Below, one piece after another: positions 36,395 to 51,484 of a DNA stretch of 64,000 bases (positions are counted from its first letter, which is position 1; the number at the start of each line of letters is the position of its first letter). The stretch lies in assembly GCF_900129195.1 (NCBI RefSeq), contig NZ_FQUY01000016.1:1-64000 (forward strand), given 5' to 3'. A program made the translations under genes and the position numbers. The notes below the pieces were generated by a model. The model was given only the letters and a program-made list of their open reading frames with translations. It ran no database searches and was not told where the DNA came from. The stretch comes from Desulforamulus putei DSM 12395. GTDB lineage: Bacteria; Bacillota; Desulfotomaculia; Desulfotomaculales; Desulfotomaculaceae.

Positions 36395-37453
36395 TTATTT
36401 CTTTTTCTCCTTCCTCGGAACATACCGGTAAGTAACCTCCACCCTGTTATGCCCAAGATCCCGTGTTAACCTGAGCCTGGACACAACATCCACCACTTTT
36501 CTTAGTGGATTTTTACACATACGTCTGGCCTTTTGCTCTGATATTGAAAATTCTTCAGCAAGTCCCTGCCAATCCTTGGCTTTCACCAATTCATTTATTC
36601 TGCTTATATATTCCTTGTGCCGTTGGACGGCAAAGGTTTTTCGCATTCCGTGCAATCCACGACCACTAAAGCCACTTTTTTCCGCAATCGTCTTAATCTG
36701 TGAATAAATGGTTTGTTGATTTACGCCGGCAAAAATACCTCCATAGGAAGCTTCTTGAACTAATCTTTGCATAAGATTATGAAATTGTCCATCATATCTT
36801 ACTTCCCTTACCTTCCCTCCCTTCTCAATTAATGTCACCGTCCTTTTTTGAAGATTAATACGCTCTGCGGTAATAGCCTTGCTAAAATCCCTATAGGTTT
36901 TATTCCCTTTTTTCAAAACGGTGCCAAAAATTGATTCGGCCCGGCAGCCGGTAGCCCGAATAAATTCTAAGGCATCCCCTGCTCTTGGGTTTATTTTCCT
37001 CAACTCCTGAATAAGCCGATCTGCCTCTTCCGGTGTATAGGCCGGCCCGCGCTGAACCGTAACATCCTCCCTGCTTCGGCGAGGTCGCTCAAACTCATCA
37101 ATTTTCCAGGACACCCTGCCAAACCATTTATTTGTCATTTTCTCCAATTTTTCAAGGGCTGAAGAATATTGATGTACTGTTTCTGGCCTCCGGATCTGCT
37201 TTATCCTTTCAAGAAAATTCCGCACTTCTTCAGAAGTTACGGAACATATTTGAAATTTTGTTGTCCCCCTTCTCTCCGCTAGGTCTTTGGCAAACCGCAT
37301 ACAAGCCGCCCGGTAGAGGTCGTATGTTGCAGCCCCAGTTATAGCTGCGTCCAGCTGACCGGCTTTCTTTAATTCCTTTTTCTTTTGTCCAAAGCTCCTC
37401 GACATACTAAATAACTGGTCAATCTGCCGATATATGGTTTTAACCTTCGTCAT
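36395..37453 (-). CDS. int: Tyrosine recombinase / integrase
   Basis: 352 aa. Catalytic residues are readable: Arg in IRATGCRAESIF (about 165-176), Lys in EKGGKVREVR, HxxR in LHGMRKTFA (about 264-272), His in LGHNRVEVTY and the Tyr nucleophile in VTYRYV (about 341-343). ATG 37453 has AAAGGATGG 6 nt upstream. The core is longer than usual between the HxxR box and the final motif. It is the first gene inside the element and is preceded by five TCCGGA iterons that could control it. Its attachment site was not identified. Confidence 0.88.
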   Translation of the reverse strand: MTKVKTIYRQIDQLFSMSRSFGQKKKELKKAGQLDAAITGAATYDLYRAACMRFAKDLAERRGTTKFQICSVTSEEVRNFLERIKQIRRPETVHQYSSALEKLEKMTNKWFGRVSWKIDEFERPRRSREDVTVQRGPAYTPEEADRLIQELRKINPRAGDALEFIRATGCRAESIFGTVLKKGNKTYRDFSKAITAERINLQKRTVTLIEKGGKVREVRYDGQFHNLMQRLVQEASYGGIFAGVNQQTIYSQIKTIAEKSGFSGRGLHGMRKTFAVQRHKEYISRINELVKAKDWQGLAEEFSISEQKARRMCKNPLRKVVDVVSRLRLTRDLGHNRVEVTYRYVPRKEKKK

Positions 37454-37474
37454 GCTACACCATCCTTTTTGTTT

Positions 37475-37734
37475 ATGTCCGGACAATGTCCGGGCAAAAC
37501 ATTTGGAAATTCCTTATATCCGGACATTGTCCGGACAATTTTTATCCTGTTTTAGTTTTGTTTTTCAGATTTGTCCGGAATGTGTCCGGACAAATTATTC
37601 TCCACAGTGTATTTCATTTCCAAATTTTTTAAAAAATACTATATCGTGTATTTTAAAATAGCTTATGTCCGGACATTTTCCGGACATTCATTACATGTTT
37701 CAGGTTTTATGTCCGGACAATATCCGGACATAAA
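37475..37734. repeat. Iteron cluster 1 (TCCGGA pairs) upstream of the integrase
   Basis: Five copies (about 37475, 37516, 37571, 37664, 37709) of a unit built from two TCCGGA boxes one helical turn apart, ideal form TGTCCGGACAATGTCCGGAC. The same unit occurs eight times at 54678-54946 between parM and parR. The repeats fill the integrase promoter region. Confidence 0.9.
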
Positions 37735-37754
37735 TTAATTTTTTCGTATAGCTG

Positions 37755-38446
37755 CCGCAGGATAAAGGTACCACTGCCAGGGTTTTGACTGCCCTTACCA
37801 GGGCAGAAATAAATTCCTCCTGATCATTTTTTTACCGACCAGCTTGCATTGCTGCCGCAATGCAAGCAGCACCTACCGGTGCTGTGGTACCCTGGGCTCC
37901 CGCCCAAGAGCTTAGCTTTGCTATTGCCTTGACACTACCGTTTCAAGGCAATAGCAAAGCTAAGGTTTGACGCCCCCTGCCAGGGTCGTTTATTTATACC
38001 TACCGGTCTAAATAAACGACCCTACGGGTCTTGGACGCAAACCTTCCTGCCGGAAGCTTTGCGATATTCATCCGCCATTGGTCTGTTCCCATCAGCCCAA
38101 CGGCTATGTATTTCTTACAGGTCTTTATTCGACCCATGCGACTCCCGTCGCTCTCGACCGGGTCCCTAAAGCCGCCCTACCGGTCCGTCTCACCTACCGG
38201 TCATCGACGTTTAGACTCCATACATAGGAACGATCCCTATGATGGAAAATACTCATTTGGGAAAAATGAGCTGAGACAAGTGATTTAAGGCAGTTACCAC
38301 TGCCGCAGGTTCTACCGAACCTATCCGATCAACCTGGTTTCCACCAGGTGAAATATAATCATATGTGCTGTAACCCCAGCACGTAGGACAAAATTGTTGC
38401 AAAGCTATTCCCCCGTCAGGGGATGGCCTGGCTTGCACCAGGCCAA
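37755..38446 (-). ncRNA. Candidate large ornate structured RNA
   Basis: About 690 nt with no open frame but dense perfect stems: 37789-37806 (7 bp), 37842-37867 (11 bp), 37868-37883 (6 bp), 37911-37964 (22 bp), 37982-38023 (15 bp), 38036-38063 (6+5 bp), 38131-38164 (5+5 bp), 38289-38304 (6 bp), 38307-38322 (6 bp), 38332-38349 (7 bp), 38365-38382 (6 bp), 38425-38444 (7 bp). A long-range helix joins 37767-37774 to 37884-37891. Eight hairpin tips end in the same loop, GGUA on the minus strand; others are GGCA, GGAA or GGGA. Minus strand is inferred from neighbouring genes. Size and style recall GOLLD/ROOL-class RNAs, but identity is not claimed. Confidence 0.6.
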
Positions 38447-38462
38447 AATCTGTTAATAAAGT

Positions 38463-38621
38463 TTATTCTTCTTTAACAATAACCTTGTGAATATGATGGT
38501 CGCATTTACTTCCACTGCAACCTTTAAAACTTTCTTCCTTGTATTTATCACATTTGTTTACGACTTCTCGCGTTATGAATGCCTCGTACTTATTGCAATA
38601 ATCTCCCGATTCAATAACCAT
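38463..38621 (-). CDS. 52-aa Cys/His-rich peptide
   Basis: MVIESGDYCNKYEAFITREV, then NKCDKYKEESFKGCSGSKCD and HHIHKVIVKEE. Four cysteines and three histidines suggest a single zinc site. AAAGGATG lies about 10 nt before ATG. It is immediately upstream of the large structured RNA region, and a transcript from here would run into it. Confidence 0.6.
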   Translation of the reverse strand: MVIESGDYCNKYEAFITREVVNKCDKYKEESFKGCSGSKCDHHIHKVIVKEE

Positions 38622-38639
38622 ACTATCTATCATCCTTTC

Positions 38640-39419: not shown

Positions 39420-39425
39420 GTTCTT

Positions 39426-39489
39426 GATACCGGCTGCCGCCGGTATCCTCCCTCCTTTCGGATTGAATTTACCGGCTTTTAGCCTGGTA
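39426..39489 (-). promoter_or_regulatory. Stem-loop / SD / stem-loop module of the DUF6573 gene
   Basis: Downstream hairpin GATACCGGC/GCCGGTATC (39426-39447, 9 bp, loop GGCA) lies between AAAGGAGGGAGG (39448-39458) and ATG 39419; its base is 6 nt from the ATG. An upstream hairpin (39470-39489, TACC-GGC pairs with GCC-GGTA) precedes the SD. Confidence 0.7.
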
Positions 39490-39508
39490 TTTTCTTGCTA
39501 CGCTATGC

Positions 39509-39640
39509 TTGATTATCACCACAAAAAATGTATAATTTAATCAAGCATACTCCTCTGTGAAGGAGGAGGCGTGTGGTTTTTTAAATAGGGCTTTTACTGT
39601 GTCTGCGTTAGGTTTATAATGTAACCTAACGTTTTTTCTT
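39509..39640 (+). ncRNA. Candidate antisense RNA (type I antitoxin-like)
   Basis: One of the few plus-strand units in the element. -35 TTGATT (39509-39514), 16-bp spacer, -10 TATAAT (39531-39536), start near 39543, and an intrinsic terminator with a 9-bp stem (CGTTAGGTT, 39606-39614 with 39623-39631) plus TTTTTT. The RNA would be about 95 nt. It includes a CTCCT/AGGAG hairpin and overlaps the 3' end of the 35-aa peptide gene on the other strand. A 12-bp inverted repeat TATGCTTGATTA (39504-39515 with 39538-39549) spans the promoter. Confidence 0.55.
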
Positions 39641-39733
39641 TCTCTTGCGGCTGACGCTGTGCCTAAGTTCAACCAGTTTCGTCAGCAGTGTAATGGCTGC
39701 TGTCAAAAGCTGGAGCAACTCAATTATTGGCAT
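39626..39733 (-). CDS. 35-aa hydrophobic/basic peptide (type I toxin-like)
   Basis: MPIIELLQLLTAAITLLTKL, then VELRHSVSRKRKKKR: one membrane helix and a strongly basic tail, the layout of Fst/TxpA/holin-like toxins. SD GAGGGGGTGA lies 6 nt before ATG 39733. The SD is partly buried in a leader hairpin (39744-39797). The antisense unit on the other strand overlaps its end. Not assigned to a named family; chance cannot be fully excluded. Confidence 0.55.
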   Translation of the reverse strand: MPIIELLQLLTAAITLLTKLVELRHSVSRKRKKKR

Positions 39734-39743
39734 GAGCGTCACC

Positions 39744-39797
39744 CCCTCTCTCTGTGGGTCCCACACGCCTCCATGTGTAGGGACCAACAAGAGAGGG
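39744..39797 (-). promoter_or_regulatory. Leader hairpin of the toxin-like peptide
   Basis: CCCTCTCT/AGAGAGGG (39744-39751 with 39790-39797), GGTCCC/GGGACC and ACAC/GTGT form an 18-bp interrupted stem. Its base covers part of the GGGGG Shine-Dalgarno region (39742-39746), which should restrain translation. Confidence 0.6.
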
Positions 39798-39832
39798 CTG
39801 CGTCAGGGCTGTACCACCAAACCCATATTCTT

Positions 39833-40009
39833 TTACTTATTTATCAGGTAGTTGATTAGATGGGCGCCAAAGTACAGCGGCACCGCGACAATCAAAAACC
39901 TGAACAGCTTACGCTCGTAAAAATCATCCAGCCAGTTGAAGGTATCCATCAATATATCTTCACTGGTTGGTTGGCTTTCGTAAACAGCCTTTCGTTGTAC
40001 TTGTTCCAT
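39833..40009 (-). CDS. 58-aa small membrane protein
   Basis: From ATG 40009: MEQVQRKAVYESQPTSEDIL, then an amphipathic part and one membrane helix (FLIVAVPLYFGAHLINYLI). GGGAGGT (40057-40064) is followed by a 12-bp GC hairpin (40027-40056) and then 17 nt to the ATG; a TTG at 40042 lies inside that hairpin. It follows the unusual translation-start layout of its neighbours, though with a longer gap. Function unknown. Confidence 0.55.
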   Translation of the reverse strand: MEQVQRKAVYESQPTSEDILMDTFNWLDDFYERKLFRFLIVAVPLYFGAHLINYLINK

Positions 40010-40213
40010 ACTTAAAGCCGGGTATGGCCCTGCCGGGGCCAATTCCCCGGCAGGGCACCTCCCTACTGGTTAATTCTTTAGCTTTCTTTAATTTTCCGGG
40101 CCTTCAAGGACCGTACCCCGGTCCGTGCTCACCCGGCTTTTAATCCCCACTTTTTAGCCGCCAGGCACTTTGCTTGTTCGTGACTTTTAGCAACTACCCT
40201 GGTTGTTAAACCG

Positions 40214-41985: not shown

Positions 41986-42033
41986 ATATCCCTGCCTTGA
42001 CGGCCTTGCTTTTTTCCCAATCCTTTCCAGGGG

Positions 42034-42462
42034 TTACAGCTGCTTGGCTCTAATAGCAAACCAGGCTTCCCCGTCTTTCATTACATTATACTCGATCTCA
42101 AACTTCTTGTTCAGACCATCTTGCAGTGTTTTTCCGACACCGTTTTTGGCAATGATTATTTGGTCATCCTTGCCGTTTTCTACCCGGCAAACAGCCCTGG
42201 TATTGCCATTCTTGGTCACTTCCACTTTAACTACAGTGACTACTGCTGTCGGATTCTCTTTTGCGTTCTTCTCTGCCCCTTCGTTTTCAGTAGAAGAATC
42301 GTTTTGGTTGCCGGTGTTGTTGGTAGGCCGTTCGGCCGTATTTTGATTAGTTAAGCCAGAAAATATAACCGGAACCGCAAACATACGGCAGGAACCGGAC
42401 CATGCCATACACTGCTCACGCAAACATTCTTCAAAACCTCTGAACGGACATGCTTTTTTCAT
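42034..42462 (-). CDS. Hypothetical protein with Cys-rich head
   Basis: 142 aa. The head CPFRGFEECLREQCMAWSGS (5-24) has cysteines as in plasmid zinc-binding proteins, then a Thr/Asn/Glu-rich linker (about 38-68) and a beta-rich domain (VVKVEVTKNGNTRAVCRVEN). Similar architecture is seen in small ICE proteins; no family named. The translation start uses the hairpin-bracketed SD at 42470-42536. Confidence 0.6.
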   Translation of the reverse strand: MKKACPFRGFEECLREQCMAWSGSCRMFAVPVIFSGLTNQNTAERPTNNTGNQNDSSTENEGAEKNAKENPTAVVTVVKVEVTKNGNTRAVCRVENGKDDQIIIAKNGVGKTLQDGLNKKFEIEYNVMKDGEAWFAIRAKQL

Positions 42463-42469
42463 TTTTCCG

Positions 42470-42536
42470 GATACGGGCCTCGGCCCGCATCCTCCACCTC
42501 CTTTTAGTTTAGTGTAGGATTACAGGCCGCTAGGCC
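42470..42536 (-). promoter_or_regulatory. Stem-loop / SD / stem-loop module of the 142-aa gene
   Basis: Downstream hairpin 42470-42491 (CGGGC/GCCCG plus a GAT/ATC extension) lies between AGGAGGTGGAGG and ATG 42462, base 7 nt from ATG. Upstream hairpin 42525-42536 (GGCC/GGCC, 4 bp) is weak. Confidence 0.6.
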
Positions 42537-42547
42537 GTCAGCTTTCT

Positions 42548-43405
42548 TTATGCAGCACTTTTCTTTTCTAAGTCTTCTGCTGCTGCAAAAACCCTTTTCA
42601 TGCACTCTTCCACATCGGATAGTACACGAAAGATAACTTTTAAAGCCTCGCCGGGATCATTGGCGGCGTAGTGTTTGATATATTCCCAGGAATACTGATG
42701 ATATCCCCGAATACCGTGCAGCTCACACATTGTGGCCGCAAACACTTCAGCAACAATTTCTTGCTCTGATACCTGCCCGTTTTGAAGATTTCGGAAAGTA
42801 TGGTGGACTGCATGTCCTAACTCATGAAACCACGTCTTTACGTCATGGGTATGCAGAACAATTTTCTTTCCGTTTTCACCCCAGGCATAAAAACCGTAGG
42901 ATCTGTCGCTGCTGGGCGTGTAGATAATTTCTTTTACTCCGAACGCTTTTGCCACCTCAGCCAAGGGCGGCGGTTCGGGTGGAGCATATTTACTTTCTAA
43001 AAGAGGTTCCCCTTCGGTATCCTCATAACGGAATACCGGGATAAACCGAAACCCGATAACAACCATGCGTTCTTCTTCGATTTTACGTTCTTCTCCCGTT
43101 TCCGAATCTATTTCTTTGGCTTTAAATATTACTTTTTTAGTTAACGGCGCTAAAATATAGAAAGCTTTGGCGCCCTTTTTAACACGCCTATTGACTTCTT
43201 CCCACTGTTTAAACCCCCGGGCATCTTCGGTACCGTTTAAAAGCATTATGATTCTGTTGCCCATGCTCCACTTATCAGACGGTCTTTCGTCACCCGCCTG
43301 ACGGCGAAGCATTGTTCTGGCCACGGCCGGCGGCAGGTCGCCGCTTTCAAACATGGCCATCAGCCGGTTTAGGGTTGCCTTTGCTTTCTCAGTATCAAGT
43401 TTCAT
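42548..43405 (-). CDS. ArdC-like antirestriction protein with zinc protease motif
   Basis: 285 aa from ATG 43405. The N-terminal ArdC-like ssDNA-binding region (about 5-140) reads QWEEVNRRVKKGAKAFYILA; the C-terminal ImmA/IrrE-like part has HELGHAVHH (about 196-204) and a distal Glu. Such proteins protect entering plasmid DNA. An ATG six codons earlier (43423) sits in the loop of the hairpin 43413-43436; by analogy with its neighbours the start is placed after the hairpin. Confidence 0.82.
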   Translation of the reverse strand: MKLDTEKAKATLNRLMAMFESGDLPPAVARTMLRRQAGDERPSDKWSMGNRIIMLLNGTEDARGFKQWEEVNRRVKKGAKAFYILAPLTKKVIFKAKEIDSETGEERKIEEERMVVIGFRFIPVFRYEDTEGEPLLESKYAPPEPPPLAEVAKAFGVKEIIYTPSSDRSYGFYAWGENGKKIVLHTHDVKTWFHELGHAVHHTFRNLQNGQVSEQEIVAEVFAATMCELHGIRGYHQYSWEYIKHYAANDPGEALKVIFRVLSDVEECMKRVFAAAEDLEKKSAA

Positions 43406-43412
43406 GCTTGCA

Positions 43413-43475
43413 GGGCAGGCCATCTATTGCCCGCCCCTTTCACCTCCTTTGTGGTGATGGGCGGGCCGGGCCGCC
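43413..43475 (-). promoter_or_regulatory. Stem-loop / SD / stem-loop module of the ArdC-like gene
   Basis: Downstream hairpin 43413-43436: GGGCGGGC pairs with GCCTGCCC through one G-U pair that exists only in the minus-strand RNA. Base is 7 nt before ATG 43405. AAAGGAGGTG (43441-43450) lies just upstream, and another hairpin (GGCGG/CCGCC, 43460-43475) precedes it. Confidence 0.7.
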
Positions 43476-43482
43476 TGGAATA

Positions 43483-43596
43483 TTAATTTTCTTTCCAGAT
43501 ACATCCACAGACAGGGCAAATAAAATACCCTTCTTCATCTACCTCAACCAAAGATAGACAGTTGTAGCATTGACAGTTAATAAGAATTCTTTCCAT
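43483..43596 (-). CDS. 37-aa zinc-ribbon peptide
   Basis: MERILINCQCYNCLSLVEVD then EEGYFICPVCGCIWKEN: two Cys pairs (CQCYNC and CPVCGC) form a rubredoxin/zinc-ribbon-like knuckle. GGGGGGATG lies about 6 nt before ATG 43596. One of several very small Cys-rich proteins in the element. Confidence 0.65.
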   Translation of the reverse strand: MERILINCQCYNCLSLVEVDEEGYFICPVCGCIWKEN

Positions 43597-43627
43597 AGAC
43601 ACATCCCCCCGCTACGCTGTTTTTATT

Positions 43628-43966
43628 TCATCTTGCAAACTTTTCCCGGTACTCCCGCGCCGCCGGCGTGTCGAACCGGAGCGGGTTTTCTCTGATTTCC
43701 GCCCAGAAAGTGCGCCGGTTGGCCGGAGCGACTCCGAATTTACGCAGGCACTCGGCTTTAACCAGACAGAACAGGCGCTGCTCTTCCCGCTTGGCCAGCT
43801 TTTTGAAGTCCGCCAGCGTGTTTTGAAGCGCGATGTTCGCGTTTTCGATGCCGTAACGCTCCACGTACTCGTTGTAGCGTTCCATGATGTCCTGCTCAGT
43901 CAGGTCTTTCCCCGCCTGCATGGCGTAGTGCAGGGTCTTGACGATAAGTTTTCTAATACTGTCCAT
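43628..43966 (-). CDS. Hypothetical protein
   Basis: 112 aa, helical and basic, starting MDSIRKLIVKTLHYAMQAGK. GC-rich codon use differs from its AT-richer neighbours, suggesting a separate origin. SD AAGGAG lies 10-11 nt before ATG. No family recognised. It follows the structured non-coding region 44001-44710. Confidence 0.6.
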   Translation of the reverse strand: MDSIRKLIVKTLHYAMQAGKDLTEQDIMERYNEYVERYGIENANIALQNTLADFKKLAKREEQRLFCLVKAECLRKFGVAPANRRTFWAEIRENPLRFDTPAAREYREKFAR

Positions 43967-44000
43967 TAGCCGTACACTCCTTCCATAAAATTATGTACAG

Positions 44001-44710
44001 AGCGTCCGGCTACCCAACCGGACGCTAAAATAAGCTGCCCGGCTGGGCAATATTTTCACGACTTTCAATAAAAAAAGGCACGCCAAAAAGCGGTTATCAA
44101 TACCGCAGTTTGCATACCTTTCAATAGCTTCTTAGCTTATGCTAAATCATCTTGCAAACGTTTCTTATCCGGCATCACATCCAGTGCATGGGCATACCCG
44201 GACTTTAACCCTTACACCTTCACCCTGCGCTTGCCGCCGCATCAGCACTGGTAGTGCGGGACCACACCTTCACCAGTGGTTCGGGTTCTCCTTGCTCTCA
44301 GCCCCGTGGCGGCGAAATCCCTCAAAAGCCCTACACGGGGGTTGGTGCCGTTTCATAAGTTTAACCTGCGTCTCCCCTCGGCGGAGCACACCCGCCTGAC
44401 GCTGCATTTCTGCGCGGTTAAACTAAATCTTCCTGGATTTATTAGGCCAGGTCCTTACTGCTGCCAAGAAGGGGTAGTTGACAACAGCATTTTCCCAGTG
44501 TGGCCACTCACCGAGTTTTGTTTTGACAACTACTTTCTGTGAAAATGCACAAAAACCGAGTTTTTATGCCTTAACACCATAGTTGTCTGTCAAAACCACT
44601 AAACCCTGTTTAGTGGTTTTTGACTTTGGAAGACTATAATAACCCTGTTATTATAGTGGCCGGTCTTCCTGGTATAGCCGTTTTCCCACTCAGTGGATAG
44701 CTATACCTTT
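44001..44710 (-). other. Second structured non-coding region
   Basis: About 700 bp without a gene. Stems: 44001-44026 (9 bp), 44303-44340 (CCCCGTG/CACGGGG), 44359-44423 (8 bp, bulge, 3 bp), 44589-44624 (16 bp, one bulge), 44634-44656 (10 bp) inside 44628-44669 (7 bp), 44671-44707 (8 bp). The stems at 44592-44620 and 44634-44656 have the same triloop (CCT plus strand, AGG minus). GTAGTTG (44474-44480) and GCATTTTC (44487-44494) pair in crossed order with CAACTAC (44527-44533) and GAAAATGC (44541-44548), a possible pseudoknot. It could be an RNA, an oriT or both. Confidence 0.5.
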
Positions 44711-44754
44711 TATTTGATTACACATTTTTACAATACCAAATATTAATTCAAAAA

Positions 44755-45468
44755 TCAATCCACAATATCTAAAAATTGTTTTTTACTTATATCATAAAAT
44801 TTGTTCCCGTTACAATCCAGTTGTTTGGCCAGGTCTTTGGCGTATTTGTTTATATTTAGCGCATCCAGTGTTTTTATATTTACCAGGAAGATTGTAAATC
44901 TGTAGTTAGGTATTTCAGAAACTCTGACATCTTCCAAAAGTTCTATGTTATATACCTGACCCTTCTGGTTTTCTTTTACTTTATAACAACCTATCATAGC
45001 AAATAGTTCCTGCACATCAAAAACAAACTGCGCCTTAAGGTACTGTTTATATTTTTGTTCTAAAGAAAGGGTAAATGGCAATGAATTATATTTCTCCCCC
45101 ATATCTTCAAGGGCATATACACCACCTGTATCTACCATATACCAAAAGTATTCTTTTTCTTCTGTTTTTATACGATTTTCGTAGACTAAACCAGTAATGA
45201 CACAATCCTCAATTAATCTTTTAAATTTATTAAACTTTATACCTATTCCTGGGATTATCATATCCTTATCAGCTATCTGAAAGTAGTTAATAAATCTTAA
45301 TATGGATTCATGTTCTTTTGTAAGCATTAATGTTTTAAAATATCCGGCTACATCATCCTTTGATATATTACGACCAATAAGTGGTTCTTCAAAGCCAATG
45401 TTATATCTCCGGCCTTGTGTAGATTCGATTGATTCCATAAAATAGTCCGTGTCATAATTACATAGCAT
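44755..45468 (-). CDS. Hypothetical protein
   Basis: 237 aa from ATG 45468 (GAGGTGA 5 nt upstream). The middle looks like a winged-helix (TKEHESILRFINYFQIADKD ... FNKFKRLIEDCVITGLVYEN), as in replication-relaxation type proteins of conjugative elements, but the match is weak. No catalytic motifs. Confidence 0.55.
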   Translation of the reverse strand: MLCNYDTDYFMESIESTQGRRYNIGFEEPLIGRNISKDDVAGYFKTLMLTKEHESILRFINYFQIADKDMIIPGIGIKFNKFKRLIEDCVITGLVYENRIKTEEKEYFWYMVDTGGVYALEDMGEKYNSLPFTLSLEQKYKQYLKAQFVFDVQELFAMIGCYKVKENQKGQVYNIELLEDVRVSEIPNYRFTIFLVNIKTLDALNINKYAKDLAKQLDCNGNKFYDISKKQFLDIVD

Positions 45469-45498
45469 ACTCTTCACCTCAAATTAACATTAATTTTG

Positions 45499-45532
45499 GA
45501 AAATCCCCGGACAAATGGTGTCCGGGGATTTA
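45499..45532 (-). terminator. Terminator of the S1-repeat gene
   Basis: AAATCCCCGGAC/GTCCGGGGATTT, a 12-bp perfect stem with 7-nt loop, minus-strand tail ATTTTCC. It carries the CCGGACA/TGTCCGG half-sites also found in the iterons. Confidence 0.75.
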
Positions 45533-45538
45533 AAGACA

Positions 45539-46444
45539 CTACTTTTCTTCTCTTTTATGTTCCGGGTTCGGTTGAACCAGGGTTAATTTGCTTGTTTTTT
45601 CAGCTTTTTTATTCCGCCAGTAATTGCGGTTTTTTCTTCTCCCCCTAATTAATTCAGGGTCAAAAACAGACAAACTAATTTCTTTTTCTTTCGTGTTGCA
45701 ATTATTGACAATGCAAACTAATTTTTCTCCCAGTCGCGGTGTTGGATTATTGACCGGATAAGGGGCTATACCTACCACACCAGGGCTTAATGCTAAAAAG
45801 ATGTTGCCTAGGCCGAGTCGCACAACAGTACCGGTTACAATATCTCCTCTAATATATTTTACATGTTCCCATGGATCGATCAGGGAAACAATAATTTGGC
45901 CGGTAGATTTGTCAATTTTATCAATTATGGCCTGTACATATTGGCCTTCACTATATAATTCGTCCAACCGCATAGAGCGTGAAACCCTGGCTTCTCTGGG
46001 GTTAAAACTGACGATTACACCACCACCAATATCTACGCCCAGCCATATGTCACTGACAAAGACTACCTGTGCCTCGAATTTTATTCCTTCTTCTGCAATA
46101 TGCAAAAGCCGGTTACGGGCTTCTTCTACCAGTTCGCGGCGGGTGCAGGCTACCAGGTTGTTTTTCTTATCGATACCTTTGATTCGAATATTTATTTCTT
46201 TTCCTACAAAGAAATTCATCATTTTATCGGTAGGAAGGCCTGTTTCACTTGCCGGCACCAGTCCCCGGACATTGGGAAAACCATCAAACTCCAGTTCCCA
46301 AGCCAGTCCTTCCAGGGTTTCATGTCTTCTAGTGGCAATTACTGTGGCTGTCATTATGGTGTTGCGGTCCCTGGCATCGTAAAGTAGGTTCCAATGATCT
46401 GTTTTCTGTTCAAAGTTTCTTTCAGGCGGTAATAGAGTTTTCAT
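45539..46444 (-). CDS. S1-domain RNA-binding protein
   Basis: 301 aa with three S1-like OB-fold repeats (about 28-105, 115-190, 195-270), e.g. LVPASETGLPTDKMMNFFVG, GVIVSFNPREARVSRSMRLD and GDIVTGTVVRLGLGNIFLAL, then a basic tail. It should bind single-stranded RNA. An S1 protein is unusual cargo; on an element with structured RNAs and hairpin-gated starts it may aid translation. AAAGGGGG lies 9 nt before ATG. Confidence 0.8.
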   Translation of the reverse strand: MKTLLPPERNFEQKTDHWNLLYDARDRNTIMTATVIATRRHETLEGLAWELEFDGFPNVRGLVPASETGLPTDKMMNFFVGKEINIRIKGIDKKNNLVACTRRELVEEARNRLLHIAEEGIKFEAQVVFVSDIWLGVDIGGGVIVSFNPREARVSRSMRLDELYSEGQYVQAIIDKIDKSTGQIIVSLIDPWEHVKYIRGDIVTGTVVRLGLGNIFLALSPGVVGIAPYPVNNPTPRLGEKLVCIVNNCNTKEKEISLSVFDPELIRGRRKNRNYWRNKKAEKTSKLTLVQPNPEHKREEK

Positions 46445-46469
46445 TATAAATTTCCCCCTTTATTTTTCT

Positions 46470-46505
46470 TGGGTATTCGGATTCCATAGAATTCGAATAC
46501 CCATT
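46470..46505 (-). terminator. Hairpin between the coupling protein and S1 genes
   Basis: TGGGTATTCG/CGAATACCCA, 10 bp, with no long T-tail; a processing site or weak terminator. Confidence 0.45.
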
Positions 46506-46528
46506 TAAATCAGTTTTTGGTTAGTTTT

Positions 46529-48061
46529 TTACCAGTGGTTGTGGTTGTTAAAATTAACGGTGTACTTATGGGAATTTTTTGTACTAGAATTTTTTTGAGA
46601 CTGATTATTAGTTTCAATATAACTGATGTTCGGTAAGCTAACAGTAAATGGCCTTGGCGTTACTATTGAGCTGATGGGCAATTCTCCCAGTTCTTTTATC
46701 TCTTTAGCTTGGGGCAATCTATCCCAGCCCACTTTTTTAAGGTATAAAGGGTAGCACCACTGTATCAGTGCCAAGCAGTCCAGCGGGTGCATTCTGGCTA
46801 TTTCATCCGGGGTCATCAGGGACCTTTCGATGACCTTTTTGGTCTTTTTGCTTAACTGAAGGTGGTGAGCAACCGGTACGGTCACGTCTTCACTCTCAAA
46901 TTTGCCGTATACCGCAACTTTCCCCAGTATCCGCGAGAACATTTCTGCTGTTTCAAGATCCCCGGGGGTAACTCCCAATAGCAGAAGGGTTGGGCAGTTA
47001 GCTAAAATGTTTTTTGCTTCTTCTCTGCCGTATACATCGTCCAACTGGCTGCGGCCCTGGAGGATAAATTGAATGTGAATACCTAAACTGCGTGCTGTTG
47101 AAATAATTTCTGAAAAGCCTGGTATTTGGCCGATGTTGGCAAATTCGTCTAAAAGCATACGCACCGGTACCGGCAGTTTACGGTTGTTGCTGTCTGCCAG
47201 TTGATACAGTCGCTTAAATAAAAACATGTAGAAGGTTGAGAGGATGGGTTTTAATACTCTGTTTTCTCCTCTGACCGGTAGTACACAAAAAAGTGCTGTC
47301 TTTTTTTTACCCACATCACTTAGTTCTATTTCCTGCTGTGATAACAGGGCTGCCAGTGGTTCAGTGGTAAGCACTTTAAGTTTTGCCGAAAGGCCGGAAA
47401 CTGCGTGTTCAAAGTTAGCTGATGCGGTGCCCCGCCAGCGTTCGTAGATGGTAGCGCTAATTTTGCCCGTCTGGTAGGCTTCTTTAAAACGATAATTAAG
47501 CTGTTCTTTATCCCATGATGTAAGGCTCATCACAGTTCGCATGTGTCTTTGCTCTTCCGGAAAATCGCCCTTTAGGAGGCCCACCAGGGCTTCTAAAAGC
47601 TGGATTTCTTTTGCCACAAAATAGCCAGAATCATCTTTGGCCGCATTATTAATAAAGCATGAGGTCATTTCTGCCACTTCTGCGTCGTCACTGCTTTCCA
47701 GAATGGGATTCCAGCGGTGACTGCAGGCAGGGGTATTTAAGTTGAAAATTTTTACTTCATAGCCCATTGCTGCTAGCCAGGCAGACATAATTTCTGCCAG
47801 TTCTCCCTTGGGGTCTATAACCACCATGCTTTGACCGTCTGCTACGGCCGCAATCATGTTGCCCAGGACAAATGAGTAGGATTTACCGCTGCCAGTGCCG
47901 CCAAAGATGGCTGCATGACCAGCCAAGCTGGGCATCCCTTTAGGGGCTTTGCCGGGTATGACTCGGATGATCTCTCCGTCCAGTTCGCCAAGTATAATAC
48001 CGCCCGGGTAGGCGGTATTGGTAAACAGTTTTATCACATTAAAGGGCGCTTGTCTGGTCAA
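46529..48061 (-). CDS. VirD4/TraG-type coupling protein, ATPase part
   Basis: 510 aa. Walker A GGTGSGKSYSF (about 52-62), ID-type SMVVIDPKGELAEI, Walker B RMLLDEFANIGQIPG (about 295-309) and the RSLGIHIQFILQGRSQLDDV helicase-like motif identify a type IV coupling ATPase (TraG/VirD4). The N-terminal membrane domain is missing and is encoded by the gene just upstream in another frame. TTG 48061 with AAAGGAGAAG upstream. It pumps DNA to the transfer channel; the other T4SS genes are not in this window. Confidence 0.88.
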   Translation of the reverse strand: MTRQAPFNVIKLFTNTAYPGGIILGELDGEIIRVIPGKAPKGMPSLAGHAAIFGGTGSGKSYSFVLGNMIAAVADGQSMVVIDPKGELAEIMSAWLAAMGYEVKIFNLNTPACSHRWNPILESSDDAEVAEMTSCFINNAAKDDSGYFVAKEIQLLEALVGLLKGDFPEEQRHMRTVMSLTSWDKEQLNYRFKEAYQTGKISATIYERWRGTASANFEHAVSGLSAKLKVLTTEPLAALLSQQEIELSDVGKKKTALFCVLPVRGENRVLKPILSTFYMFLFKRLYQLADSNNRKLPVPVRMLLDEFANIGQIPGFSEIISTARSLGIHIQFILQGRSQLDDVYGREEAKNILANCPTLLLLGVTPGDLETAEMFSRILGKVAVYGKFESEDVTVPVAHHLQLSKKTKKVIERSLMTPDEIARMHPLDCLALIQWCYPLYLKKVGWDRLPQAKEIKELGELPISSIVTPRPFTVSLPNISYIETNNQSQKNSSTKNSHKYTVNFNNHNHW

Positions 48062-48653
48062 TATGATCTTCTCCTTTCTTTACAATCTTAGGTGTTAAAG
48101 GTGGGCCAAATTCACAAAGGTGTTTAATATCTTGTTTAGCGGCCCACCGTGAGGTGCCGTGGGCTGCGCTGTCGGCTACTTCTAATCCATGTGAGAATTT
48201 TGAGTTGTTTTTTCTCTTCCCCCCTTTCAGACTGCGGGTTATTTGTATAGCTACTGGTACTAAAAATACCAGTAACAGGTTTAGCCACAGCCAGATCTTT
48301 CTTACATTCGGCTGACTGAGTTGGGTGCTGCTTTTACTGACCCAGGCCCAGGCGGTGGTGATGGGATGCTGCCAGTAAAAACTAACTGAATCAAATGCGT
48401 GTTTAGCCGCCTCTTTTTGGGCGGCGGTAGCAAATATTGATATTCCGTCTGCCCATTTACCAAGCCCCGACAGCCAAGCGGCCAGGGTGCCCAGCAGCCA
48501 CACGTCTGCAATATAGAGCAGTGGTAAGGCCACCGGCAGCCCGGCGGTAATGAGTACGGCTTTTTTATGTTTCTTTACCCAGGGCGGCAGGTCTATGTCA
48601 CGGGCAGCTTTGATTGTTTTTAAGGCAGGCTTAAGTTTATCCGGCAGTCTCAA
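48039..48653 (-). CDS. Membrane part of the split coupling protein
   Basis: 204 aa with hydrophobic segments (about 31-60 and 122-142) and the sequence HGTSRWAAKQDIKHL (about 167-181). That is the conserved segment that in TraG/VirD4 proteins lies between the TM domain and the nucleotide-binding domain (GSARWATKxEI-like). The protein stops 23 nt inside the ATPase gene. The two ORFs together make one normal coupling protein, so this is a natural split or a frameshift. Confidence 0.7.
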   Translation of the reverse strand: MRLPDKLKPALKTIKAARDIDLPPWVKKHKKAVLITAGLPVALPLLYIADVWLLGTLAAWLSGLGKWADGISIFATAAQKEAAKHAFDSVSFYWQHPITTAWAWVSKSSTQLSQPNVRKIWLWLNLLLVFLVPVAIQITRSLKGGKRKNNSKFSHGLEVADSAAHGTSRWAAKQDIKHLCEFGPPLTPKIVKKGEDHIDQTSAL

Positions 48654-49020
48654 TCAGGGCACCTTCTTTCTGGCGTGTAATGTCGTAAGGCACAATTCTC
48701 ATGGCCAGTTGGTTGTCTACGCCCAGGGCGTCTAAAACCTCCCGCCGGACGTAGACGTAGCCTATTTCTCCCAGTTCATTCAAGTTTTCGCTGAAACGAA
48801 CGCAAGCCTCGTATTCTTTGTTGATTTTCAAAGAGGTAACATACCCGCCCGGGGGAAGATATTTTTTGTCGGTATCCAGTTGGACCAGGATTTCATCCAC
48901 AATTCCAAGCCTGCTTTTAAGTTGGTGAGGAATGTAAATTCTGCCGATTCTGTTCATGCCTTCGGTAAACACTGTTTTGTTGGGTGTTTTCTTATAGTAC
49001 CTCATGTAGAAGCTGTACAT
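48637..49020 (-). CDS. Hypothetical protein with two AbrB-like halves
   Basis: 127 aa. GMNRIGRIYIPHQLKSRLGI (about 21-40) resembles the swapped-hairpin AbrB/SpoVT core, and a second similar part (IGYVYVRREVLDALGVDNQL) follows. It may bind DNA or be a structural copy of that fold. Its stop overlaps the next gene by 17 nt, and it follows topB by 17 nt. Confidence 0.5.
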   Translation of the reverse strand: MYSFYMRYYKKTPNKTVFTEGMNRIGRIYIPHQLKSRLGIVDEILVQLDTDKKYLPPGGYVTSLKINKEYEACVRFSENLNELGEIGYVYVRREVLDALGVDNQLAMRIVPYDITRQKEGALIETAG

Positions 49021-49037
49021 GGGTTCATCTCCTTCCT

Positions 49038-51446
49038 TTAGTTTTTCCGGGTGAACTCAAATTCTACTTTACCGTTGCCGATAACCAGGGCAGCTTCAAA
49101 TTCCTTGCCGGCTTTACTTTTGAATCCTTTCAAAACGCCAGTGCGGCCTTTAGCCAGCAGTTCCCTGGCAGCGGTAATGCCGATTTTCTTCCCCGAGATT
49201 TCCTTCCAGATGGTGAATTTACAGCCCTCTTGATAACCGGTGCATCCAAATCCACGGCTGTTTTCAACCACGTCTCTGCCGCAGATAGGGCATTTACCCA
49301 GGGAGTTACTGCCGGCTTCACTCTTCCGGCCGGTATTGTCCGTTGCTTGGGACCTATCCGGGAAGCTAAACTCGATCTTGCCGCCTTCCCCAAGAACCAG
49401 CACTGCGTCAAAGCTCTTGCCGGATTTCCCCTTAAAACCTTTAATGATTCCTGTTTTGCCCTTGGACAGCAGATCCCCGGCTTGCTTTTGGGTGATCTTT
49501 TTACCTGCCATTTCTTTCCAGATGGTGAATTTACAACCGTCTTTGTACCCTGAACACCCGTAACCCTTTGTTGTTTCCACCACGCCCCGGCCGCACACCG
49601 GACAATTGCCAAGAGCTTTCTTTTCCGCGGCAATGCTGATGGCTGTTTCTTGATTCCGGGCCAGTTCCACCAGTTCCCTGGTATATTCACATATACTCTT
49701 CATCCATGCCGCGCTGTTTTCTTGTCCTTGCTCGATTCGCCGCAGGCCTTCTTCCCAGTTTGCGGTCATTTCTACCGATTTCAGCTGCTCCGGCACCAGG
49801 TCAATCAGGGTCATACCTTTAGGTGTAGGGACCAGGGATTTCTTTTCTCTGACCAGATAGCCTACTTTTATCAGTCTTTCAATAATGGCCGCCCGGGTAG
49901 CAGGTGTGCCAATGCCGCCAGCCTCCTTCAGCACCTCGGCCATTTCCTTGTCATCACAAAACCGGCCGGCGCTTTCCATAGCCGCCAACAGTGTTGCTTC
50001 TGTGAATCGCTTGGGCGGTTTGGTCTGTTTTTCCACCGGCTCTGCCTTGGATACCACAACGTTTTCCCCTTGACTTAAAGGCGGCAGGTTCTGGTCCTCG
50101 TTCTCATCGCCGTCTTCTTTTTGCTCCTGCTGTTTATCACGCCACAGAACTTTCCAACCAGCGGCCAGCTCCACTTTACCCTTGGACATAAAGGTTTCAC
50201 CGGCTGCCTGGGTGACAACTTCGGTTACGGCATACCTGGCCTCAGGGTAGAAAATGCTTAAAAACCGCCGCACCACCAGGTCATATATTTTTTCTTCTTG
50301 ATCGCTCAACCGCACTTCAGCCGGGTTTCTGTCGGTTGGTATAATGGCATGGTGGTCGGTGATTTTGGCATCGTCCACGTATCTTTTGTCCAGGTGTGGT
50401 ATGTCTGCAGGAATAAAGTCTTTATATTCCGGCATATTTTTAAGTGCTGCCAGGCGGCCGGCCAGGGTTGGCACCATAGCTGTAGACAGGTGACGGCTGT
50501 CGGTTCTCGGGTAGGTAAGAAGTTTGTGCTTTTCATACAGGGCCTGGGCAATATCCAGTGTCTGCTGGGCTGTATAGCCGTACCGCCGGTTAGATTCTTT
50601 TTGCAGGTCGTTAAGGTTAAATAAAAAAGGCGGCTGTTCTTTGGCCTCCTTCTGCATTAACGTTATGATTTTCCCTACGCCTTCACGGGCAACTTTGTCT
50701 GCCAGTGTTTTGGCGGTCTGGGAATCTTTGAATTTGGTTGTGTCTTTTGTGAACCATTTGCCCCGGTAGGTTCCCCCGTTGGCCTGAAAAACTGCGTAAA
50801 CTTCCCAGTATGGCTTTGATACAAAGTTTTGTATCTCTTTTTCCCTGCTGACCACCAGGTTTAGGGTTGGGGTCTGCACCCGCCCCACCGACAGTACGGT
50901 GTTGTGCCGTACTGAAAAGGCCCTTGTGCCGTTGATCCCTACCAGCCAGTCCGCCTGGCTGCGGGCTTCGGCGGCTGCTGCCAGGTTGTTGTATTCTCTG
51001 CCGTCCCGCAAGGCAGCAAAGGCGGCTTTTACCGCCGACGGCGTTGTTTCGGACAGCCACAGTCTTTTGATTGGCTTCCGGCTGCCGCAGTACCGGTAGA
51101 TCCGGCGGAAAATTAATTCCCCTTCCCGCCCAGCGTCGCAGGCGTTTATCACCTGGACTACTTCCGGTAAGTTGAGCAGTTTTTTCAGCGCCCGTAGCTG
51201 TTTGGCAGATGAGCCAATCTCTGTAAGTTTGAAGGTGTCAGGTATAATGGGCAGGGTGCTTAAGTCCCATTTCGTAAGGGCCGGGTCGTATTCGGACGGG
51301 TCGGCCAGTTCCACCAGGTGGCCAAAGGCCCAGGAAATCAGGTATTCATTGTTTTCCAGGTAGCCGTCCTTGCTTTCGAATTTGCCTAAAACTAGGGCAA
51401 TATCTTTTGCTACCGATGGTTTCTCGGTTATTACTAAAGTTTTCAA
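49038..51446 (-). CDS. topB: DNA topoisomerase III
   Basis: 802-aa type IA topoisomerase. TOPRIM domain (EKPSVAKDIALVLG; NACDAGREGELIFRRIY) and active-site tyrosine in KLLTYPRTDSRHLS (about Tyr312) are clear. The C-terminus carries two zinc ribbons (CPVCGRGVVETTKGYGC at about 618 and CPICGRDVVENSRGFGC at about 720), each followed by a FTIWKE-GKKI-...-G-G-KGFK-K-GK-F-A-LVxG unit, an extended duplicated tail. Plasmid-type TopB decatenates replicating DNA during transfer. TTG start with GGAGGTG 7 nt upstream. Confidence 0.95.
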   Translation of the reverse strand: MKTLVITEKPSVAKDIALVLGKFESKDGYLENNEYLISWAFGHLVELADPSEYDPALTKWDLSTLPIIPDTFKLTEIGSSAKQLRALKKLLNLPEVVQVINACDAGREGELIFRRIYRYCGSRKPIKRLWLSETTPSAVKAAFAALRDGREYNNLAAAAEARSQADWLVGINGTRAFSVRHNTVLSVGRVQTPTLNLVVSREKEIQNFVSKPYWEVYAVFQANGGTYRGKWFTKDTTKFKDSQTAKTLADKVAREGVGKIITLMQKEAKEQPPFLFNLNDLQKESNRRYGYTAQQTLDIAQALYEKHKLLTYPRTDSRHLSTAMVPTLAGRLAALKNMPEYKDFIPADIPHLDKRYVDDAKITDHHAIIPTDRNPAEVRLSDQEEKIYDLVVRRFLSIFYPEARYAVTEVVTQAAGETFMSKGKVELAAGWKVLWRDKQQEQKEDGDENEDQNLPPLSQGENVVVSKAEPVEKQTKPPKRFTEATLLAAMESAGRFCDDKEMAEVLKEAGGIGTPATRAAIIERLIKVGYLVREKKSLVPTPKGMTLIDLVPEQLKSVEMTANWEEGLRRIEQGQENSAAWMKSICEYTRELVELARNQETAISIAAEKKALGNCPVCGRGVVETTKGYGCSGYKDGCKFTIWKEMAGKKITQKQAGDLLSKGKTGIIKGFKGKSGKSFDAVLVLGEGGKIEFSFPDRSQATDNTGRKSEAGSNSLGKCPICGRDVVENSRGFGCTGYQEGCKFTIWKEISGKKIGITAARELLAKGRTGVLKGFKSKAGKEFEAALVIGNGKVEFEFTRKN

Positions 51447-51484
51447 GTAAGCACACCTCCTGTATTGTTTTTTGACTTGAGTGT

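Follow-up and report, generated by a model that had tools for sequence, protein, structure and literature searches.

A putative structured RNA with repeated-loop hairpins on integrative elements of the Desulfotomaculales

Near 44 kb of the window (the whole 64,000-nt stretch of Desulforamulus putei DSM 12395 that was analyzed), a 788-nt gap at 43,967–44,754 separates a minus-strand gene for a 240-aa protein upstream from a 112-aa open reading frame downstream, and the palindromes in this region raise the question of whether it holds a transfer DNA structure or the gene of a structured RNA and, in the latter case, what such an RNA might do. Our best reading, drawn from sequence comparison, is that the minus strand from about 44,710 to 44,070 is a structured noncoding RNA gene of roughly 650 nt that belongs to an order-level family of integrative elements. 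Two types were distinguished among relatives, the R-type of the window and a D-type, with repeated hairpin loops of the form AAC-NNN-GUU and GC-GNNRA-GC, respectively, and up to 8 such hairpins per RNA.

A conserved fold on the minus strand

A preliminary description of the plus-strand letters had pointed to a structured region with two long stems bearing identical triloops, a third stem, a possible pseudoknot and an alternative pairing. Repeat search places the two long stems at 44592–44604/44608–44620 (13/13 pairs) and 44633–44643/44647–44657 (11/11 pairs), each around a 3-nt loop that reads CCT on the plus strand and AGG on the minus strand with a C-G closing pair, and the third stem (44671–44678/44700–44707, 8/8 pairs) is present as well. 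The region is indeed conserved and its hairpins recur in relatives, but it is the minus strand that is functional, and the unit is more extensive, reaching about 44,070. Relatives keep both sequence and structure, the lack of which in related elements had been named as grounds for dismissing the idea, and the comparative covariation analysis proposed alongside supports the fold in the 3′ core, the 5′ stems and two pseudoknots.

In the 3′ core (model R1), 95.1% of 245 cells pair across six RNAs, compared with 87.5% in shuffled alignments and 31–49% when the structure is slid along the alignment, and changes on both sides occur at 11 pairs against a shuffled mean of 6.5. The core pseudoknot comprises 6 pairs, 3 of them with changes on both sides. 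Because 21 of the 245 cells are G-U and one pair is U-G in all six RNAs, which would be an A-C mismatch on the other strand, we assign function to the minus strand and to the RNA form.

Toward the 5′ end, the same hairpin series (H1 to H5; Table 1) could be placed in the R-type RNAs when they were folded one by one. These stems were placed by hand after folding, so that their pairing percentages lean towards structure and it is the variety of pair types that carries information. Pairing in H4 was counted in four RNAs for each stem (inner 32/33 and outer 31/32 positions); in the inner count the G032 row repeats H3, because the arms were matched to the identical, earlier sequence in H3. A long-range pseudoknot joins the bulge of H2 to the loop of H5, with GGCCA/UGGCC in three of the six R-type RNAs and GACCA/UGGUC, GGUCA/UGACC and GGUCA/UGGCC in one each, giving 30/30 paired cells and both-sided changes at two positions over the six. 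Pseudoknots that covary thus exist in this RNA, though elsewhere than in the crossing helices first proposed, which draw no support from relatives. Those helices exist as sequence (GTAGTTGACAA/TTGACAACTAC at 44474–44484/44523–44533 and GCATTTTCCCAG/CTGTGAAAATGC at 44487–44498/44537–44548), as does the alternative pairing of GACAACTA with TAGTTGTC (44525–44532/44580–44587). The MFE fold instead pairs GACAACTAT with GTAGTTGTC around the third triloop hairpin, and the crossing helices are peculiar to this one sequence, relatives keeping the local outer stem of H4 at this place (four of six R-type RNAs, with differing sequences).

Both ends of the R-type RNA were read from sequence, the 5′ end from the first conserved hairpin and the 3′ end from the T-run of the terminator. 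Promoter-like sites of the TTGACA type, matching at 10 or 11 of 12 positions, lie upstream of 13 of the 19 RNAs, and mononucleotide shuffles equal their scores in at most 12% of trials; a 10-of-12 site is missing in five of the six R-type RNAs, and the window RNA has no evident promoter of its own (best site 8/12, matched by 74% of shuffles). Taken with the window terminator, the sites upstream of those 13 RNAs suggest that the RNA would be transcribed as one unit.

Table 1. Features of the RNA locus and its surroundings, in window coordinates.
Feature	Coordinates	Strand	Basis or remark
R-type structured noncoding RNA (putative)	44070–44710, approximate	-	kept in 5 other genomes; no long ORF on strand
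Intrinsic terminator hairpin and T-run	44070–44122	-	sequence and fold; terminator scan caught inner stem
Conserved 3′ core (model R1), pseudoknot 44198–44203 × 44167–44172	44147–44356	-	covariation in 6 RNAs
H1, 5′ hairpin	44671–44707	-	6/6 R-type RNAs; 54/54 pairs placed by hand; each of 7 compared positions shows several pair types
H2: outer stem, GGCCA bulge 44657–44661, inner stem with AGG triloop 44644–44646	44628–44669	-	hand-placed pairs: outer 38/38, inner 54/54
H3, AGG triloop 44605–44607	44592–44620	-	49/51 hand-placed pairs, 6 RNAs
H4: outer stem GACAACTAT/GTAGTTGTC, inner hairpin with TCG triloop 44557–44559	44525–44587	-	MFE; both placed in 4/6 RNAs
H5 hairpin, loop with UGGCC 44502–44506	44495–44516	-	loop motif in all 6 R-type RNAs
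Long-range pseudoknot, H2 bulge GGCCA 44657–44661 × H5 loop UGGCC 44502–44506	44502–44661	-	
240-aa protein	44755–45477	-	directly upstream of RNA; no match to a curated family at threshold, though relatives give a weak wHTH signal
S1-domain (RNA-binding type) protein	45539–46444	-	S1 homology; part of exchanged block
T4SS coupling protein (VirD4/TraG type)	46529–48061	-	part of exchanged block
Block differing from otherwise collinear G002 element	43477–48475	.	only 64% match at 46989–47581 inside
Integrase-like recombinase	36395–37486		

The absence of a relaxase gene had led to the suggestion that the 44-kb structure might be the element's oriT, and PF03432, the only relaxase family searched, was indeed not found on the element. 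An oriT or other transfer DNA structure at this place would suit the coupling protein on the element and the palindromes of the region, but the G-U pairs, including the one kept as U-G in six of six RNAs, and the minus-strand-specific pairing are RNA-like, and the RNA is present, too, in elements whose examined flanks contain no coupling-protein relative. A better candidate is found at 37,501–38,023, and we regard an oriT at 44 kb as very improbable. The 1.15-kb noncoding stretch concerned (37487–38639) lies beside the integrase gene, is conserved in relatives and contains several TCCGGACA-type palindromic iterons (37501–37745) as well as two long inverted repeats (25 nt, 96%, 37911–37964; 19 nt, 95%, 37982–38023); judged by these repeats, its 37.5–38.0 kb part is a better oriT, att or ori candidate than the 44-kb region. 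Another noncoding stretch, at 39420–40213, is 74–93% conserved over hundreds of bases at three related loci (L058, L059 and L067).

Relatives, linked proteins and the host element

R-type and/or D-type RNAs were found in 17 of the 113 genomes of the order, R-type in 6 and D-type in 13, with two genomes carrying both. A DNA search of 200 related genomes matched seven. Besides the window's own genome, five share the conserved core; the seventh, G074, was left out because its match spans only 38 nt. The R1 covariance model identified full-length members in 6 of the 113 genomes of the order, a second search of 113 genomes gave the same six, and among 398 genomes drawn from the phylum it found the window's own only. 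Set aside were R1 matches in G002 and G103 (29–30 model positions) and those in G062 and at a second place in G000, which are coding-like and were judged to be chance. Named carriers of the R-type are Desulforadius tongensis, a Pelotomaculum MAG and a Clostridiales MAG. For the D-type, core model R2 detected 11 of the 113 genomes, and two RNAs were added by hairpin motif and position, one in G019 (only 14.6 bits with R2) and the second RNA of G098. R2 matches outside the order, in G255 and G428, were rejected as chance, one lying inside a long reading frame and the other among overlapping frames, with the GCGNNRAGC repeat absent. Neither model convincingly finds the other type. The two genomes with both types differ in layout: in G098, the Pelotomaculum MAG, R-type and D-type RNAs stand in tandem about 1 kb apart (locus L013, 15740–18350), whereas G032 has one of each in separate places. 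No blastn match to the RNA was obtained among plasmids or phages, and none by pattern in viral contigs; an origin as a phage or plasmid RNA was rejected on this lack of a nucleotide match and because the 240-aa protein encoded next to the RNA has no viral and no plasmid relative.

Minus-strand genes around the RNA code for the coupling protein, the S1-domain protein, an HTH_36 (replication-initiator-like) protein, topoisomerase III, a helicase-loader-like protein and an actin-like protein, among others; from these and the integrase-like recombinase we infer an integrated, conjugation-related element. A large Ig/Fn3-type surface protein and a ParA/MinD-like AAA_31 protein are encoded farther along the contig (window 56660–61276 and L086, 339–2201); they may be components of an element-encoded pilus or surface apparatus. 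The element of G036 contains group II intron pieces near its coupling-protein gene (L010, 12692–12776 and 15119–15316).

Relatives of the 240-aa protein occur at 16 loci in 15 of the 113 genomes of the order, and a search of 348 genomes drawn from the phylum gave two matches, both inside the order. A PDB profile search with this protein returned chance matches only, and a model of the protein alone by AlphaFold2 had a mean pLDDT of 31.6, too low to use. At 14 of the 16 loci an RNA lies directly downstream of the gene, R-type at 4 and D-type at 10; the remaining two are at a contig end (G009) and about 14 kb from a D-type RNA (G053). RNA type follows the clade of the 240-aa protein without exception (4 R versus 10 D), and the branch separating the two has 100/100 support.

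Comparison with the closely similar element of G002, which carries a D-type RNA, bears on this linkage. The two elements are 91–96% identical over most of 35.8–40.1, 42.0–43.5 and 51.5–54.3 kb and 87–89% identical over 40.5–41.6 and 48.5–51.5 kb. Identity is 91% at one border of the differing block (42013–43476) and 89% at the other (48476–51481), while the proteins encoded there share only 57% (coupling), 38% (S1) and 29% (240-aa) identity. Since the RNA and the 240-aa, S1 and coupling genes all differ together, the RNA and its neighboring proteins seem to move as a block. The association is not absolute: three genomes with an RNA (G016, G098 and G020) have no 240-aa relative, and in G016 and G098 no S1-domain or coupling-protein relative was found in the examined flanks, although an HTH_36 Rep relative is present in both and an integrase relative in G016. 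Neither the 240-aa nor the S1 protein can therefore be an obligatory partner. The coupling protein follows RNA type less strictly, as G053 combines a coupling protein near the window's (74.5%) with a 240-aa protein on the D side.

A cis-acting leader or attenuator of downstream genes would likewise end in an intrinsic terminator just ahead of the next gene, and at several D-type loci (L019, L024, L025, L026, L028 and L029) the frame after the RNA resembles, by eye, a single-stranded DNA-binding protein (ssb-like). Yet the downstream gene varies between members while the core is kept, a leader of about 650 nt with repeated loops would be unusual, and the tandem R and D copies of G098 are hard to reconcile with such a role, to which we give little credence.

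Repeated loops and possible function

The window RNA contains three AAC-NNN-GUU hairpins whose stem is at least 4 bp long; 500 dinucleotide shuffles averaged 0.16, with a maximum that was also 3. Under the same stem rule the R-type RNAs have 3, 1, 3, 3, 3 and 2 hairpins (shuffle means at most 0.21) and the D-type RNAs 1, 5, 2, 3, 3, 7, 3, 5, 6, 0, 4, 3 and 1 (shuffle means at most 0.07), the zero belonging to G032b. One loop motif thus recurs several times on a single RNA, though some RNAs fall short of this when the stem rule is applied strictly. The variable bases of the loop also tend to agree within an RNA, as in the window (AGG, AGG, UCG), G016 (CAG three times) and G098 (UAG twice) for the R-type, and in G006 (GAAGA five times) and G099 (GCUGA three times) for the D-type. 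We compared this agreement with permutations in which loops were exchanged among RNAs at the same hairpin, a test that ignores the tree; homologous positions were assigned by order, with empty cells at the first position for G032b and at the third for G095 and G051 and for G037 and G098. Identical loops made up 6 of 14 within-RNA pairs in the R-type (permuted mean 1.33, p 0.0016) and 21 of 33 among the first three loops of the D-type (permuted mean 6.8, 0 of 20,000 permutations as high). Within a set of three closely related D-type RNAs the agreement was less pronounced (p 0.034), and in R-type G036 and G037 no two loops are identical within the RNA.

The same small loop on several hairpins suggests that the RNA gathers several copies of one partner. 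No loop-complementary receptor was found across the R-type alignment (best column 3/6 for 3-mers, and 4/6 with wobble only for 4-mers), so that a partner external to the RNA is favored. The reading we prefer, with a likelihood that falls just short of even, is that the RNA acts in trans as a multivalent scaffold or sponge for a common partner. Its 3′ domain would form the conserved core with its pseudoknot, and its 5′ domain a hairpin array that shows several copies of one loop and is joined by the long-range pseudoknot. Each hairpin would bind one copy of the partner, most likely the S1-domain or wHTH-like protein of the cassette or, where these are missing, another protein of the element or one of the host, and the bound RNA would serve to assemble or control a step in transferring or maintaining the element.

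The strongest rival, in our judgment still an unlikely one, is an RNA-only ornate assembly like GOLLD, ROOL or OLE, in which homo-oligomers form via hairpins and pseudoknots and the loops are structural contacts. The size range, mobile-element setting and conserved 3′ with variable 5′ part of our RNA match GOLLD as portrayed in part of PMC12286853, GNNRA loops could take GNRA-like folds (sections of PMC12550061), the long-range pairing uses a palindromic GGCC in the loops of 4 of 6 RNAs, and the RNA exists without the 240-aa and S1 genes. Against such an assembly, no ornate family in Rfam matches, no complementary receptor covaries with the triloops, and the tight link to a protein clade would not be expected of an RNA-only device. 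A strict CsrB-type sponge, titrating a regulator of element or host mRNAs, shares the placing of one motif on multiple hairpin loops with the CsrB design (excerpts of PMC7652899) and could draw on the adjacent S1-domain gene; we consider it improbable, for no mRNA targets are known and the elaborate pseudoknotted 3′ core exceeds what a plain sponge needs. None of 16 R-type triloops gives GGA, even when the base after the loop is included, which argues that the partner is not CsrA.

A more speculative reading, to which we assign only a slim chance, is that the repeated 3–5-nt loop serves as an identity code of the element, read by the matching cassette of S1, wHTH and coupling proteins; if so, the RNA rather than a protein-DNA contact would set the specificity of a transfer or maintenance step. 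To our knowledge, bacteria have few large structured RNAs whose function is unknown, and almost none of these has a known partner. Two designs, interchangeable loop sequences, candidate RNA-binding neighbors and joint differences between near-identical elements amount to a natural experiment on the purpose of the loops, through which the function of an ornate RNA becomes directly testable.

Comparison with known RNA systems

Scans with all families of Rfam 15, including GOLLD, ROOL and OLE, using both gathering and E-value thresholds, gave chance-level matches only at the RNAs; they covered the window, 13 relative loci, one D-type RNA and one R-type RNA. A group I or II intron, a riboswitch and a known sRNA were each rejected for want of an Rfam match at the RNA. 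In the open-access literature, no paper was recognizable as describing this RNA, and a term search of the main text of a bacterial noncoding RNA survey (PMC11109978) returned neither Desulfotomaculum nor Pelotomaculum nor conjugative. With a length of about 600 nt or more, a conserved complex structure and pseudoknots, the RNA fits the description of ornate large RNAs, and it is best read, on sequence grounds, as an uncatalogued ornate RNA family of mobile elements whose members carry an array of repeated loops and are linked to a protein cassette.

Like GOLLD, ROOL and OLE, which are large RNAs of unknown function, it falls in the range of about 600–850 nt and has a complex pseudoknotted fold, and it resides on mobile DNA as GOLLD and ROOL do; GOLLD combines a conserved 3′ domain with a variable 5′ domain (as far as these points are treated in portions of PMC12286853). 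It differs from all three in having no covariance-model match, in its repeated same-loop hairpins, in the linked S1 and wHTH-like proteins, and in not lying near tRNA genes (no tRNA in the window). CsrB displays one motif on many hairpin loops of one RNA, and with CsrB and CsrC (RsmZ-type) our RNA shares many hairpins with one loop motif and a possible protein partner (from extracts of PMC7652899). Unlike these, it has R-type loops without GGA, is larger, contains a pseudoknotted conserved core, and varies in loop sequence between elements. The boxB loops of phage lambda are GAAGA and GAAAA. That of P22 is GACAA, and GNRA-like pentaloops elsewhere are protein-binding or tertiary-contact loops (both from passages of PMC12550061). 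The D-type GNNRA pentaloops resemble these phage boxB sites for N peptides, a likeness of loop sequence alone; unlike boxB, the D-type hairpins are arrayed, several on each terminated, stand-alone RNA.
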